From Halorubrum distributum JCM 10118 (GTDB taxonomy: Archaea > Halobacteriota > Halobacteria > Halobacteriales > Haloferacaceae), in assembly GCF_000337335.1 (NCBI RefSeq), contig NZ_AOJN01000062.1, forward strand, positions 1-64,000: a stretch of DNA of 64,000 nt, read 5' to 3'. The notes under the pieces are model-generated. The model made no database searches. It was not told where the DNA came from and saw only the letters and a program-made list of their open reading frames with translations. This document shows, piece by piece, positions 9,593 to 60,043 of this stretch. A program made the translations under genes and the position numbers. Each line of letters starts with the position of its first letter. Positions within the stretch are counted from its first letter, which is position 1.

Positions 9593-10147
9593 GTGTTCAG
9601 CCTCAACGTCCCGCTGCCGCCCGCGGTGGACCGGCTCGCGACCGATCTCCACCCGAAACGAACGGGGTTCGACAGGGTGCGCGAGCGGCGCACGCTCGTC
9701 TGTAAGCGGTTCGGGGTCGGAGACGTGCGAGACGGAGACGAAGAGACCGGCGAGCGAGGCCCTCCCCCCCGACAGGAGGCCGTCGACCGCCTGCGCGAGC
9801 GACTTCGCCGCCCCCTCGCCGCGGTCGAGCCCTTCGAGGTCGCCGTGACCGGCGTCGACGTCTTCGACGCGCCGCGGTCGGGGTCGCGGCCGGTGGTGTA
9901 CTTGGCCGTCGAGAGCGACGAGCTGGTTCGGGTTCACCGGCGGCTCTGTGACGCGTTCGGCGCGGTCGAGGGCATCGAGGGCGACGAGTACATGCCGCAT
10001 ATCACACTGGCGAGAGGTGGGAATCCTGAGCCGGGGGTCGTCGCCGACCTCGTCGACGCCGAGTTCGAGCCGGTCCGGTGGCGGGTCCACGCGCTCGACG
10101 TGTGGGACCCGGAGTTCCGGGAGGTCGCGGCGAGCGTCGATTTATAA
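9593..10147 (+). CDS. 2'-5' RNA ligase-like 2H phosphoesterase, first His motif lost
   Basis: A 184-residue member of the 2H phosphoesterase superfamily (LigT/ThpR-like), which act on 2'-5' or cyclic phosphodiesters of RNA or nucleotides. The second HxT motif is present (PHITLARGG, about residue 139). At the expected place of the first motif the sequence is RRTLVCKRFG, with Arg instead of His; a single CGC-to-CAC change would restore it. The protein may therefore be catalytically dead or have changed chemistry. It ends D-L-stop with TTA TAA inside the TTTATAA edge of repeat copy A, so the repeat supplies the stop codon. An ORB-like sequence with one extra base lies in the gene at 9648-9670. 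Confidence 0.75.
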   Translation: MFSLNVPLPPAVDRLATDLHPKRTGFDRVRERRTLVCKRFGVGDVRDGDEETGERGPPPRQEAVDRLRERLRRPLAAVEPFEVAVTGVDVFDAPRSGSRPVVYLAVESDELVRVHRRLCDAFGAVEGIEGDEYMPHITLARGGNPEPGVVADLVDAEFEPVRWRVHALDVWDPEFREVAASVDL

Positions 10148-10510
10148 GTGATCGATTTCGGGGTGTCGGCGACTACCTCCAAAGCCCCAGCCGATCGGTT
10201 ATAAATAACTGATAGCGGATCAGCCGCGACCATCTTCAAAGCCCCAGCCGCGAGAACTCGCGCACCTCGCTGCGCGCTTCAGTCGCTCGCTTTGCTCGCT
10301 CCTTCCAGTGCTTACGTCGGTGTGCTTCGTCCTCGCGGCTGCCCCTTTGAGTCCCACTCCACCCCACACCGCAACCGCGCCTCACACCTCCCCAGCCTCG
10401 TCAGCCGGCCTCCGCTTCGCTCCGGCCGGCTGACTCCCTCGCGCGTGCTCCTCGCGTCCTTCGGACGCTCGGAGGCACGCGCCGACCGGACAAGGGTACT
10501 GTATATAAAT
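10137..10510 (-). repeat. Dispersed structured repeat, copy A
   Basis: Full copy in minus orientation. Hairpin 1 has GCGTCC (10454-10459) with GGACGC (10463-10468) inside GCGCGTGC/GCACGCGC. Hairpin 2 has perfect 11-bp arms (10400-10410 with 10424-10434). Hairpin 3 has 10-bp arms (10245-10254 with 10332-10341). Two copies of the GGCTGGGGCTTTGGAGG unit follow, exactly 57 bp apart (unit starts at 10249 and 10192 on the minus strand), each ending in TTTATAA-like sequence. It fills the whole gap between the phosphoesterase and zinc-ribbon genes; no coding signal is seen in it. Confidence 0.85.
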
Positions 10511-14044: not shown

Positions 14045-15811
14045 ATGGACGCCGACGCGGTGCGCGAGCGGGCCCGAGACCTCCCGACGGAGCCGGGGGT
14101 CTACCAGTTCCGGGCGGGCGAGACGACGCTGTACGTCGGGAAGGCGCTCGACCTCCGCGACCGGGTGCGGTCGTACGCGGACCCACGCTCGGGGCGCATC
14201 CGCGGGATGGTCGAGCGCGCCGACCGGATCGAGTTCGCGGTCACCGACACGGAGACGCAGGCGCTGCTGCTGGAGGCGAACCTCATCAAGCGGTTGCGGC
14301 CGCGGTACAACGTCCGGCTGAAAGACGACAAGTCGTACCCCCTGGTCGCCTTCTCGGACCACGAGGTACCCAGAATCGAAGTGACCCGCGACCCCGAGGC
14401 GGGCGCGGTCGCGTACGGCCCGTTCACCGACGTTGGCCGCGTCGAGACCGTGGTGAAGGCGGTGCGGGATGTGTACGGCCTCCGCGGCTGCTCGGACCAC
14501 AAGTACGAGGGGCGCGACCGCCCCTGCCTCGACTACGAGATGGGGATCTGCTCGGCGCCGTGCACCGGCGAGATCTCCCCCGAAGAATACGCCGAAGACG
14601 TCGCCGCCGCACGGCGCTTCTTCGAGGGAGAGACCGGCGTCCTCGCGGACCCCCTGCGCCGCCGGATGGAGGCCGCGGCGGAGGCGAACGAGTTCGAGCG
14701 CGCTGCGAACCTCCGCGACCGCCTCGAGGCCGTCGAGGCGTTCCACGGCGAGGGCGGCGAGGCTGTCAGCGACCGGACCGACGACCGCACCGTCGACGTG
14801 CTGGCGGCCGCGGTCGAGGGCGACACGGCCCGCGTGGCCCGGCTCCACAGCGAGCGCGGCCAGCTCGTCGACCGGAGCCGGCACCGACTCGACGCCGCGG
14901 CGGTGGAGGACGTGGACGGCGGCTCCTCGTCCGCCGACGCCAACACCCCCGCGGCCGTCCTCGCGGCGTTCCTCGCGCAGTACTACGCCGAGCGAGAGTT
15001 CCCGGACGCGGTCCTCCTCGCGGAGCGCCCCGCGGACTCGGACGTGGTCGACTGGCTGGAGGGCGAGGGGGTCGCGGTCCGGGTCCCGGGCGCCGGCCGC
15101 GAGGCGAAGCTCGTCGAGCTGGCGCTGAAGAACGCCCGGAAGCGCGGCGGGCGCGACGACCCCGTGGGCGCGCTCGGCGAGCGCCTCGGGATCGACCGCC
15201 CCGAGCGGATCGAGGGGTTCGACGTGAGCCACGCGCAGGGGACCGCCGTCGTCGGCTCCGACGTGTGCTTCGTCGACGGGTCGGCCGAGACGGCCGACTA
15301 CCGCCGGAAGAAGCTCACCGAGCGCAACGACGACTACGCGAACATGCGCGAGCTGATCCGGTGGCGCGCCGAGCGCGCGGTCGAGGGGCGGGACGACCGC
15401 CCCGACCCCGGCCTCCTCCTGATCGACGGCGGCGACGGACAGCTGGGCGCCGCCCGCGACGCGCTCGCGGAGACGGGCTGGGACGTGCCCGTCGTCGCCC
15501 TCGCGAAGGCCGAGGAGCTGGTCGTCACCCCGACCGGCACCCGGCGGTGGGACGACGACGCCCCCGAGCTCCACCTGCTCCAGCGCGTGCGTGACGAGGC
15601 GCACCGCTTCGCCGTCTCCTACCACCAGACCGTCCGCGACGAGGTGAAGACGGTCCTCGACGACGTGCCCGGCGTCGGTCCCGAGACCCGACGACGACTG
15701 CTCCGGCGGTTCGGCTCGGTCGAGAACGTCCGGGACGCCTCCCGCGACGACCTCACCGACGTCGACGGCGTCGGGGACGCGACCGCCGACACGCTCCGCG
15801 AGCGTTTATAA
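14045..15811 (+). CDS. uvrC: UvrABC excinuclease subunit C
   Basis: A 588-residue UvrC, which makes the two incisions in bacterial-type nucleotide excision repair; haloarchaea carry the whole uvrABC set. In order: the GIY-YIG nuclease ([18 protein letters not shown], residues about 16-95), a Cys-containing linker ([22 protein letters not shown]), the UVR helix pair for UvrB (about 205-240), the RNase H-like nuclease ([14 protein letters not shown] and LLIDGGDGQ), and C-terminal helix-hairpin-helix motifs ([27 protein letters not shown]). The ATG at 14045 is favoured because the family starts with [13 protein letters not shown]; an ATG at 14012 is possible. The last codons CGT TTA TAA fall in the edge of repeat copy B. 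Confidence 0.95.
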
Positions 15812-16163
15812 ATAGGTCCGCGGTGGCGCGTGCCGGCGAGCGGCCGGAGCGAAGCGGAGGCCGCGAGTCGCACGCGCGAGGGAGTCGCGAGCGAAGCGAG
15901 CGACGAGGCTGGGGAGGTGTGAGGCGCGGTCGCTGTGCCGGGCGGGACTCAAAGGGGCAGCCGGGAGGCGGGCGCAGGCGACGTAAGGACCGCAGGAAGG
16001 GAGCGAACGAAGTGAGCGACCGACCGAGGACCGCAGCGAGCGTGCGCCCGCCTCCCGGCTGGGGCTTTGGCGGTGTTCGCGATCGATCCACAGTCAGCTA
16101 TTTATAAGTGAGCGGCTGGGCCGGAGGCATTCACCCTCGATCCGCCATCGATTATTTATAAAT
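15803..16163 (+). repeat. Dispersed structured repeat, copy B
   Basis: Full copy in plus orientation between uvrC and thpR. It starts at TTTATAAAT (15805-15813) and ends at TTTATAAAT (16155-16163). Hairpin 2 has 5-bp arms (GTCGC 15884-15888, GCGAC 15900-15904). Hairpin 3 has perfect 19-bp arms (15958-15976 with 16043-16061). The 57-bp units start at 16057 and 16114; the second is degenerate. The first TTTATAA supplies the uvrC stop codon and the last serves as the thpR TATA box. Confidence 0.88.
16155..16163 (+). promoter_or_regulatory. TATA box of thpR formed by the repeat edge
   Basis: TTTATAAAT centred about 30 nt before the ATG at 16189, the right distance for a leaderless haloarchaeal promoter. 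It is also the last element of repeat copy B. Confidence 0.65.
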
Positions 16164-16188: not shown

Positions 16189-16800
16189 ATGCGCGCGTTT
16201 TTCGCCGTCGACCTCCCGGACTCCCTCGCGCCGGCCGTCGCGGACGCGCAGGCCCCCTTCGCGGACGCGCCCGGCGTCAACCCGGTCGACCCCGAACAGG
16301 CGCACGTGACGCTGAAGTTCCTCGGCGATGTCGGCGGACGCGACGACGGAACCGAACCGACGGTCGACGACGTGATCGCGGCCGGCGAGCGCGCCGTCGA
16401 CCGCGCCGGCGTCGCCCCATTTAAATGCGCCGTCGACCGCGCCGGCGTCGCCCCATTTAAATGCGCCGTCGCCGGCCTCGGCGTCTTCCCGAACCGCGAG
16501 TACGTCTCGGTCGTCTGGACCGGCGTCGACAGCGGGGCCGAGGCGCTCACCGCGCTCCACGAGGCCCTCGAAGCGGAGACGACCGCGCTCGGCGTCGACC
16601 CCGCCGACCACGAGTTCACGCCGCACGTCACGCTGGCCAGAGTGGAGACCGCGGCCGGGGCCGAGGCGGTCCGCGACGCGCTCGACGCCGAACGGCCCCA
16701 GGCCGGGTCGTTCTCGGTCGGCGAGATCCGACTGGTGAAATCGACGCTGACCGAGTCGGGACCCGAGTACGACGTCGTCCGGGAGTTCGACCTCGGGTGA
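16189..16800 (+). CDS. thpR: RNA 2',3'-cyclic phosphodiesterase ThpR with a 13-residue duplication
   Basis: A 203-residue 2H phosphoesterase (2'-5' RNA ligase family). Both catalytic motifs are intact: HVTLKFLGDV (about 39) and HVTLARVE (about 145). Between them the sequence VDRAGVAPFKCA occurs twice: an exact 39-bp (13-codon) tandem duplication at about 16397-16474 that keeps the frame. Relatives have this segment once, so the protein is longer than usual by 13 residues in the strand before AGLGVFPN. The repeat units are identical at synonymous sites, so the event is recent. It starts leaderless from the TATA box at the edge of repeat copy B. Confidence 0.9.
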   Translation: MRAFFAVDLPDSLAPAVADAQAPFADAPGVNPVDPEQAHVTLKFLGDVGGRDDGTEPTVDDVIAAGERAVDRAGVAPFKCAVDRAGVAPFKCAVAGLGVFPNREYVSVVWTGVDSGAEALTALHEALEAETTALGVDPADHEFTPHVTLARVETAAGAEAVRDALDAERPQAGSFSVGEIRLVKSTLTESGPEYDVVREFDLG

Positions 16801-30036: not shown

Positions 30037-30151
30037 TCAGGGCTCGCGGAGCACCGTCGCCTCGCCCTCCCGATCGATCAGGGCTCGCGGAGCACCGTCG
30101 CCTCGCCCTCCCGATCGATCAGGGCTCGCGGAGCACCGTCGCCTCGCCCTG
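30037..30151 (+). repeat. Three tandem 41-bp units at the 3' end of the CobW gene
   Basis: The unit starting TCAGGGCTCGCGGAGCACCG begins at 30037, 30078 and 30119, an exact 41-bp period; the third unit is the coding end of the cobW-like gene (its stop is TCA at 30119 on this strand) and diverges after about 33 bp. The first two units lie beyond the stop codon. Confidence 0.9.
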
Positions 30152-31432
30152 ATCGGTCGGGAACGGCGCGGGATCGGCGTCGGCGGGGTCGTCGCCGACG
30201 CCCGGGTCGCCGAGCGCCGCGAGCTCCTCGTCCGTCAGGAGCGCGTCGTCGAGCCGGTCGACGAGCGCGGCCTCGTCGACCCCGGTGCCGATGACGACGA
30301 ACTCGGTCCGGCGGTCGCCGTGGTCGTCATCCCACTCCAAGTCCGGGCGGTTCGAGCGCAGCATGTCGCGCTCGACCGACGGGAGGCTCGCGATCCACGG
30401 GCCGAGCGCCTCGACGCGGACCGACCGCCCGGCCTGCCCGACCTGCTGGCGCTGGTCGGTGCCGGCCACCCACAACGTCCCCTTCGAGCGGACCACGTCG
30501 GCCGGGAGGTCCCGCAGGAGCGCGGCGATCCGCTCCGGGTGAAAGGGTCGCCGGCGGCGGTAGGTGAAGGAGGTGACGCCGTACACCTCGTCGGGGTGGC
30601 GGTGGACGTGACTCCCCTCCGAATCGCCGCTGTGGTCGTGGTCGTCCGCGAGCGCGCGCTTCCAGCCGGGGAGGTCACCGACCTCGCCCTCGTCGAACAG
30701 CCCGACGTCGAGGATCCGGTCCGGGTCGACCGCCGAGAACTCCGTGACGACCGTCTCCGCGTCGGGCTGGAGCGCCCCCACGAGGCCGACCGCCTCGTCG
30801 ACCTCCGCGTCGGTACAGAGGTCCGCCTTGTTACACACCACGAGGTTCGACACCTCGACCTGCTCGACGAGGAGGTCCGAGAGCGGGCGGTCGGCGTCGC
30901 CGTCGCCCGCGCCGCCGTTCCCGCGGCCGTCGCCCGCGCCGCCGTTCCCGCGGCCGTCATCGGTCGCTGCGCCCGCGTCCGGATCGACGCGCCGCTCCGG
31001 CGTCTCGTCGCCCGCGAACGCGTCGAGGAACTGCCGCGTGTCGATCACGGTCACCAGCGCGTCGACGCGGTAGCGGGCCGCCGCGCGAGACTCGGTCGTG
31101 AACAGCCGCGCGACCGGCGCGGGTTCCGAGATACCAGAGGACTCGACGACCAGAGCGTCGAAGGAGCGCTCGTTCGCGAGCCGCACCACGGCGCTTTCGA
31201 GGTCGTCCTGCAGCTCACAGCAGATACAGCCGTTCGACAGCTCGGTGACGCCCTCGACGTCGACCTCGGACTCCTCCGCGATCAGGTCCGCGTCGACGTT
31301 CACGTCGCCCATGTCGTTGACGAGGACCGCGACGTCGCGGTCGCCGGCGTTCCGGAGCAGGTGGTTGAGGAGCGTCGTCTTGCCCGCGCCGAGTCCCCCC
31401 GAGAGCACGGTCACCGGGATGCGGTCGTCCAT
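30119..31432 (-). CDS. CobW/COG0523-family GTPase, metallochaperone-like
   Basis: A 437-residue G3E GTPase. Walker A GGLGAGKTTLL (about 12-22), the metal-binding GCICCEL (CxCC, about 68), the base-recognition CNKAD, and a His-rich linker (DDHDHSGDSEGSHVHRHP, about 268-285) before the C-terminal CobW domain (RRRPFHPERIAALL, GTLWVAG). The family inserts metals such as zinc or cobalt into client proteins. An exact 27-bp tandem duplication (30900-30926, 30927-30953) encodes GRGNGGAGD twice in the surface loop after residue 155. The 3' end is part of a 41-bp tandem array. The metal and client are not known. Confidence 0.92.
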   Translation of the reverse strand: MDDRIPVTVLSGGLGAGKTTLLNHLLRNAGDRDVAVLVNDMGDVNVDADLIAEESEVDVEGVTELSNGCICCELQDDLESAVVRLANERSFDALVVESSGISEPAPVARLFTTESRAAARYRVDALVTVIDTRQFLDAFAGDETPERRVDPDAGAATDDGRGNGGAGDGRGNGGAGDGDADRPLSDLLVEQVEVSNLVVCNKADLCTDAEVDEAVGLVGALQPDAETVVTEFSAVDPDRILDVGLFDEGEVGDLPGWKRALADDHDHSGDSEGSHVHRHPDEVYGVTSFTYRRRRPFHPERIAALLRDLPADVVRSKGTLWVAGTDQRQQVGQAGRSVRVEALGPWIASLPSVERDMLRSNRPDLEWDDDHGDRRTEFVVIGTGVDEAALVDRLDDALLTDEELAALGDPGVGDDPADADPAPFPTDQGEATVLREP

Positions 31433-46163: not shown

Positions 46164-46586
46164 TTTATAAATCGATCCGCGGTGGCGCGTGCCTGCGAGC
46201 GGCCGGAGCGAAGCGGAGGCCGCGAGGAGCACGCGCGAGGGAGTCAGTCGCCGGAGCGAAGCGGAGGCGACTGACGAGGCTGGGGAGGCGTGAGGCGCTG
46301 TGCGGTGCTGTGCGGGGCGGGACTCAAAGGGGCAGTCGCGAGGGCAGCGCAGGCGAAGCAAGGACCACAGGGAGCGAGCAGCGCGAGCGACCGAGGACCG
46401 CAGCGAGCGTGCGCCGCCCTCGCGGCTGGGGCTTTGGAGGTCGCCTCTGCCGACCCGCGATCAGCGATTTATAAGTAATCGGCTGGGGCTTTGGAGGTGA
46501 TCGCCGCCGATCTGCGATCAGCCATTTATAAACGGATTACGCAGTCTCTGGAAGCATTCACCGCGCCGCCGACGTCTATTTATAAG
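46164..46586 (+). repeat. Dispersed structured repeat, copy C
   Basis: Full plus-oriented copy in the gap between hel308 and a methyltransferase gene. Starts at TTTATAAAT (46164-46172). Hairpin 2 has perfect 10-bp arms (46243-46252 with 46266-46275). Hairpin 3 pairs CAGTCGCGAGGGC (from 46330) with GCCCTCGCGGCTG with a few wobble or mismatch positions. Three 57-bp units follow, starting at 46422, 46479 and about 46536 (the last degenerate), ending with TTTATAA at 46579-46585 close to the methyltransferase stop. Confidence 0.87.
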
Positions 46587-59409: not shown

Positions 59410-59622
59410 ACAGTGTAAAAACTCTGCCGATGAACTGGGTCGATTAGGACGGCTTGCCACGGTTAGAATTCGATGTTTCAGGCGTATTTCCCTCAAAAAG
59501 TGGCGTATTGTGAGTCGTTCCGGTGGATACGAACATAGCGACGAACGAGAGCGAGAGTGAGTATCGCAGATCGACGTTGCCGATTCTGGATTTAGATAGC
59601 CGTGAGCGACAGCGAGGAGCGC
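59410..59622. other. AT-rich gap before repeat copy D
   Basis: Contains the MNT promoter (about 59411-59420). The rest has lower G+C than the core genes and no coding signal is seen. Confidence 0.5.
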
Positions 59623-59995
59623 TTATAAAATGAGAGTACGGTGGCGCGCCTGCGAGCGGCCGGAGCGAAGCGGAGGCCGCGAGCCAGCCCGCGAGGGACG
59701 CGGTGAGCGAGGGGCGACTGCAGGGAGCCCTGAGCGAACCGCGAGGCTGGGGAGGTGTGAGGCTGCGGTGCTGTGCGGTACGGGGTGGGACTCAAAGAGG
59801 CAGTCGCGAGGGCGACGTAGGCGACGCAAGCACTGGAACGAGGGAGCGAACGCAGTGAGCGACCGAGTGAAGCGCGCAGCGATCGTACGTCGCCCTCGCG
59901 ACTGGGGCTTTGGAGGTACTCACCGCCGATCTGTAATCAGCTATTTATAACTGAACGGCCGGAGCTGTAGAGAAGTTCACTGTACGGGTTTCGTT
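59623..59995 (+). repeat. Dispersed structured repeat, copy D
   Basis: Full plus-oriented copy. Hairpin 2 arms CGCGGT (59699-59704) with ACCGCG (59738-59743). Hairpin 3 has perfect 19-bp arms (59801-59819 with 59886-59904). The 57-bp units start at 59900 and 59957 (second degenerate), with TTTATAA at 59944-59950. Located between the HEPN/MNT pair and a small membrane gene. Confidence 0.86.
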
Positions 59996-60043
59996 GAGAT
60001 TCTCGGCAGAGAAGCCGTTCCGATTTTGATCAGTCGAGCCCAC

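Follow-up and report, generated by a model that had tools for sequence, protein, structure and literature searches.

The window, a stretch of 64,000 nucleotides from the genome of Halorubrum distributum JCM 10118, was found to contain four copies of an element of ~400 bp, at ~10.1-10.5, 15.8-16.2, 46.2-46.6 and 59.6-60.0 kb. Element A (10142..10509) lies on the minus strand, and elements B (15805..16161), C (46164..46585) and D (59622..60005) lie on the plus strand. Element C begins with a 5' TTTATAA (46164-46170), followed by hairpins A and B, a G-rich linker, a long hairpin C (46320..46440; -70.4 kcal/mol, z -5.2) and three tail units. The first tail unit (46424..46480, 57 bp, with TTTATAA at 46468-46474) is the 3' arm of hairpin C; it is followed by a second unit of 57 bp (46481..46537, TTTATAA at 46525-46531) and by a degenerate third unit (46538..46585), whose TTTATAA (46579-46585) directly precedes the stop codon of a convergent methyltransferase gene. 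The three TTTATAA motifs, starting at 46468, 46525 and 46579, are thus separated by steps of 57 and then 54 bp. Long hairpins C were also present in element B (15944..16073; -79.7 kcal/mol, z -5.3) and element D (59787..59916; -69.6 kcal/mol, z -6.3), both on the plus strand. Element A carries two tail units, which run leftward from 10249 and 10192, and element D has one clear unit (59900-59956, TTTATAA at 59944-59950) and a decayed second one.

The sequence GGCTGGGGCTTTGGAGG, with three or fewer mismatches allowed, matched the window 6 times, compared with 0.14 matches expected by chance. An earlier note on this DNA had described the tail units and overlooked the element, of which they are merely the 3' end. 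The 57-bp distance that it gave for the pair at the 46.4-kb site was confirmed, but the true starts are 46424 and 46481, 2 bp from the positions proposed (46422 and 46479). Exact recurrence at 57 bp, claimed for all four copies, was found at 10.2 and 46.4 kb: both units were recognizable at three or fewer mismatches only in the pairs 46424/46481 and 10249/10192 (minus strand, 57 bp apart, with 2 mismatches in the unit at 10249), and the second units at 16.1 kb (16114, GGCTGGGCCGGAGG) and 59.9 kb (59957, GGCCGGAGCTGTAG) were strongly decayed. Similarly, TTTATAA, which was said to end every unit, formed the terminus of 7 of the 9 window units (unit 1 at 10.2 kb, units 1 and 2 at 16.1 kb, units 1-3 at 46.4 kb and unit 1 at 59.9 kb); unit 2 at 10.2 kb ended in CTTATAA instead, and unit 2 at 59.9 kb in neither motif.

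Anatomy of the element and pairing in the long hairpin

Alignment of 46 copies from the H. distributum JCM 10118 genome gave the order of the element as a TTTATAA/CTTATAA-like 5' edge, hairpin A (GCGCGTGC...GCACGCGC), hairpin B, a G-rich linker (GACGAGGCTGGGGAGGYGTGAGG...GGGACTCAAAGGGG), the long hairpin C and the tail units. The 3' arm of hairpin C reads CTG-GGG-CTTTG-GAG, and each tail unit consists of this arm again together with a spacer of ~40 nt; recognizable tail units numbered from 0 to 5 per element. All four hairpins C of the window were predicted to share a common shape and to fold far better than shuffled sequences (z -5.2 to -6.3). From the bottom up, this fold comprises an outer stem, a GGG/GGG internal loop, a long stem, and an upper part in which steps of two base pairs alternate with 2x2 internal loops. 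The base of the hairpin is fixed (CTSAAAG / CTTTSNAG, with a one-base bulge), and the upper stem is freely replaceable. Modules of the element were also found separately in other genera.

Two further observations were made on these hairpins. The heptamer GCGAAGC, which forms an unusually stable DNA mini-hairpin, occurred 32 times in the window (both strands), and 7 of these occurrences fell within the elements, which account for 2.5% of its length. In addition, several Halorubrum species, and another haloarchaeal family as well, carry a second repeat of ~60 bp with two small hairpins (GGTTCGAGA..TCTCGTCATCACGAAA..TTTCGAACGACAG; also GCGTTCACGAGAGC..GAGCCAATCAGAACGC..) inserted inside hairpin C, with the palindrome kept (L184, L194, L198 and L237, and G048 near the 59-kb site).

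Since MAFFT and RNAalifold misaligned the variable stems, pairing was tested arm against arm. For the covariation counts, arms were selected for inner pairing and the stem base was excluded from the selection. A pair at the stem base was C-G in 198 of 204 Halorubrum hairpins and G-C in 35 of 37 hairpins from other genera, and an A-U pair was replaced by G-C in 11 Halorubrum copies. The GGG/GGG internal loop was nearly invariant in Halorubrum and other genera alike. When 3' arms were picked by motif alone, without reference to pairing, 94% of inner-stem positions outside Halorubrum were paired, compared with a mean of 61% (maximum 67%) when arms were swapped between copies; these pairing statistics ignore the kinship of the sequences and recombination between copies. 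The predicted hairpin is thus supported by covariation. Template switching can also keep palindromes without selection for structure.

The hairpin base and the invariant 3x3 GGG/GGG loop could together constitute a recognition site for a host factor, on 3'-UTR RNA or on single-stranded DNA, with the tandem 3' arms as alternative partners for the 5' arm and with array length tuning the fold; we offer this as a tentative and somewhat doubtful proposal. The covariation and the invariant loop, together with the ability of each unit arm to pair with the single 5' arm, would also fit a family of trans-acting structured non-coding RNAs encoded at many loci, in which the hairpin base and GGG/GGG loop would be a protein-binding site and the tail units alternative 3' arms. 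However, no consistent promoter or terminator was found, and copy number ranged from 1 to 146, with some species having no copy, making such a family very improbable.

Spacing of the tail units and the TTTATAA motif

Spacing was determined from exact pairs at permitted distances of 41-71 only. Among the 149 Halorubrum pairs listed, spacings were 57 (85 pairs), 54 (44), 51 (9), 48 (3), 56 (3), 60 (3), 59 (1) and 63 (1) bp. In other families, tandem copies of the 3' arm recurred every 45-71 bp, had unrelated spacers and lacked TTTATAA, and each lineage in other genera had its own modal spacing among 45, 50, 54, 57 and 69. Arm repeats at 53-57 also recurred in non-Halorubrum families, again with unrelated spacers. 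Tail units made of the 3' arm were seen in G208, G183 and others; the repeats of G222, G226 and G212 were whole small hairpins in a row. Conservation of the 57-bp spacing across genomes, as had been suggested, therefore extends to its being the modal value in Halorubrum, but the spacing is not invariant: 54, 51, 48, 60 and 63 also occur there, and 45, 50 or 69 is modal in other genera.

Neighboring non-terminal units of the same array shared a mean spacer identity of 84% (median 96%), compared with 53% for units from different loci, and the last unit of an array diverged to about the degree seen between loci. The near identity of adjacent non-terminal units shows that local tandem duplication is the way in which arrays grow, and such duplication is enough to preserve spacing. 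Equal spacing thus requires no constraint on length of the kind proposed in the earlier view that the length itself matters.

Spacing was a multiple of 3 in 145 of 149 Halorubrum pairs and in 82 of 108 others. A coding tail, suggested by these multiples, was ruled out by the presence of stops in all frames (each frame held stops in 18-85% of the 57-bp units) and by the absence of a codon signature; no clear phase bias of substitution variability was detected in the tail units. Our guess is that the step-of-three lengths arise from triplet slippage of CGN runs.

The TATAA motif was conserved in the 57-bp unit class of Halorubrum; the 54-bp class has CACGTAT at this position, and TTTATAA was found in no relative outside Halorubrum. 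At the 16-kb site, the ATG is preceded at a distance of exactly 34 nt by TTTATAA or CTTATAA in four species; neither motif is present there in two species that lack the element. In the window, this motif is the final TTTATAA of element B (16155-16161), 34 nt upstream of the ATG of a LigT/ThpR-like gene (16189-16800). Judging from this placement, the tail at the 16-kb site is probably the promoter of the following gene, and an exception: of 34 downstream genes on the same strand, only 5 had a TATA-like motif 27-34 nt ahead of the start codon. TTTATAA, described earlier as a TATA-box look-alike, is confined to one unit class of Halorubrum, and among the window sites it resembles a promoter only at 16 kb.

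The conservation of TATAA within the 57-bp class and the 34-nt placement in four species would be consistent with a promoter array, in which every TTTATAA would act as a TATA box and promoters or factors would be spaced by the 57-bp period, as in halovirus HF2, whose intergenic repeats of 56-58 bp are proven promoters (PMC8707807). Against such an array, which we consider very unlikely, are the variable spacing of the units, the lack of TTTATAA in the 54-bp class and in all other genera, the lack of a sequence relation to the phage records searched (HF2 if among them), and the depletion of elements between divergent genes and their enrichment between convergent ones, described below.

The edges of the element also overlap gene ends. 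The final CTTATAA of element A holds the stop codon of a convergent LigT-like gene (9593-10147), and the 5' TTTATAA of element B holds the last Leu codon and the stop codon of uvrC. In G024, which is without these elements, CTG TAG (10.1 kb) and CTG TGA (15.8 kb) are found instead of the terminal TTATAA Leu-stop. TTTATAA can be regarded as a Halorubrum-specific edge of the element that is able to supply a stop codon (TTA TAA) and occasionally a TATA box.

Gene context, orthologous sites and distribution

Gene context was assigned with a simple codon-usage gene caller, and background gaps were taken from element-bearing loci. Convergent gene pairs hosted 51 of 113 elements (45%), compared with 77 of 395 background gaps (19%; Fisher p 1e-7), and divergent pairs hosted 14 of 113 elements, compared with 110 of 395 background gaps (depletion p 5e-4). 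The tail end was usually located 30-100 nt from the stop codon of the adjacent gene. In Haloferax, hairpins can contribute to termination (PMC7237163). The position of the element and its predicted fold suggest that it may separate or protect convergent transcripts.

Several features of the neighboring genes were also observed. Two different 2'-5' RNA ligase/LigT-family genes (9593-10147 and 16189-16800), 6 kb apart, each abut an element, and the second contains a 36-bp in-frame repeat at 16391-16485 (2.6 copies, ending CATTTAAAT). At the 3' end of a cobW-like gene, three 41-bp direct repeats (30037-30159) lie beside a TTTATAA at ~30025; these look like a tandem duplication of the gene end. 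In G024 and G028, uvrC and the LigT gene of the 16-kb site are separated by two genes, one a regulator-like and the other a hydrolase-like frame, and both are absent where the element is present (G021, G042 and G048).

Most of G021, G042, G028 and G048 carry the four window elements at orthologous sites, with orientation unchanged; G024 was without those window elements whose sites could be aligned. Among 30 orthologous loci of the 46-kb site, most species carried the element, and some showed loss, deletion or inversion of its upper hairpin. Neither a clean empty site nor a target-site duplication was found at the compared sites; TTTATAA-like motifs are present on both edges of the element, and element-less sites were too divergent in sequence for a target-duplication comparison. 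Upper stems at one site differed wholly between close species, yet matched stems located elsewhere, a pattern suggestive of exchange among copies. Repeated gene conversion, instead of function, could explain why elements persist at orthologous sites.

The H. distributum JCM 10118 genome contained 79 exact GACTCAAAGGGGCAG cores, and the unit core with one mismatch or less was found 207 times genome-wide, compared with 9 times for a reversed control. The exact core was detected in 48 of 52 Halorubrum species genomes (0-146 copies each, median 35), and the exact Halorubrum 15-mer was found in no other genus sampled. Through a plasmid search, copies were discovered in Halobaculum and Salinirubellus that carry GGGACTGAAAGGGGC instead, or a form of it differing by one base. 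This form was present in 153 of the 292 haloarchaeal genomes sampled and in 50 of the 77 genera, exact-motif counts that are lower bounds across the class; the reversed control of this search gave a single match, in one Halorubrum genome. Head-to-head hairpins (minus then plus), with motifs ~46 bp apart, recurred in several other genera (L237, L254, L258 and L259). A viral origin was rejected, as the exact 17-mer was absent from viral contigs and there was no credible phage match. No RNA family of Rfam 15 matched at the gathering or a relaxed threshold, and no description of the element was found in the open-access literature searched. The element thus spans a large part of an archaeal class, at up to ~150 copies per genome, and is absent from Rfam.

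The high and variable copy number, the nested second repeats, the hairpin with its invariant mismatch loop, the enrichment of GCGAAGC loops and a convergent-gene bias like that of pneumococcal repeats (PMC3049150) would all be expected of a purely selfish non-autonomous element of the MITE, PATE or REP type, whose hairpin is moved by a transposase acting in trans; the structure would then serve mobility only, and placement at gene 3' ends would reflect tolerance. However, mobilization by Y1/IS605 transposases was rejected, because copy number was uncorrelated with Y1 transposases (Spearman 0.10, p 0.48) and PF01797 was undetectable in six genomes with 35-77 copies. Further, positions are conserved throughout the genus, and neither terminal inverted repeats nor a target duplication were identified. 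A purely selfish element is therefore unlikely.

Proposed role and comparison with known repeats

Our preferred reading, to which we assign a probability of roughly 0.6, is that the element is an intergenic repeat of modular build, structured and non-coding, which sits at gene 3' ends and forms the Halorubrum branch of a family found widely among haloarchaea. Under this model, the element would originally have spread as a non-autonomous BOX/REP-like repeat, and its stems would have been exchanged by recombination between copies. The structure may act as a single-stranded fold, either as RNA in the 3' UTRs of convergent genes or as single-stranded DNA, and would most likely separate or protect the 3' ends of neighboring transcripts. 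As a marker of gene 3' ends, the element bears on the separation of convergent archaeal transcripts, and it is also relevant to genome rearrangement between its scattered copies and to the annotation of haloarchaeal intergenic DNA.

To our knowledge, small interspersed repeats with a structured fold have been studied thoroughly in bacteria and little described in archaea. The class I intergenic repeats of HF2 resemble the tail units in length (56-58 bp), AT motif and Halorubrum host (PMC8707807), but are viral and occur as single copies upstream of genes, and no related sequence was found. The PATEs and SMRs of Haloquadratum walsbyi are likewise non-coding haloarchaeal repeats without a transposase, and SMRs insert into other repeats (PMC3119063). 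In contrast to the present element, PATEs are derived from IS605-type elements, and a class-wide hairpin base is not described for them; this comparison with PATEs and SMRs is one of descriptions, not of sequences.

REP/BIME sequences with RAYT transposases are similar in having many intergenic copies and an imperfect hairpin whose mismatches are conserved, and in their occasional arrangement as inverted pairs (for the haloarchaeal hairpin, at a distance of 46 bp in several genera). However, the haloarchaeal hairpin is much longer, its upper stem is replaceable and its copy number is independent of RAYT-type Y1 transposases.

The BOX elements of Streptococcus pneumoniae (boxA-boxBn-boxC) differ in that the Halorubrum element is archaeal and GC-rich, has no terminal repeat found to match a known transposon, and carries as its repeated module the 3' arm of a hairpin, at the 3' end rather than between two end modules; no homology to boxA, boxB or boxC is claimed. 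Nevertheless, BOX elements are also composite intergenic repeats with a tandem short module and a predicted RNA fold, and are over-represented between convergent genes (PMC3049150). The Halorubrum element shares the BOX-like modularity, with a variable number of tandem modules (0 to 5 units).
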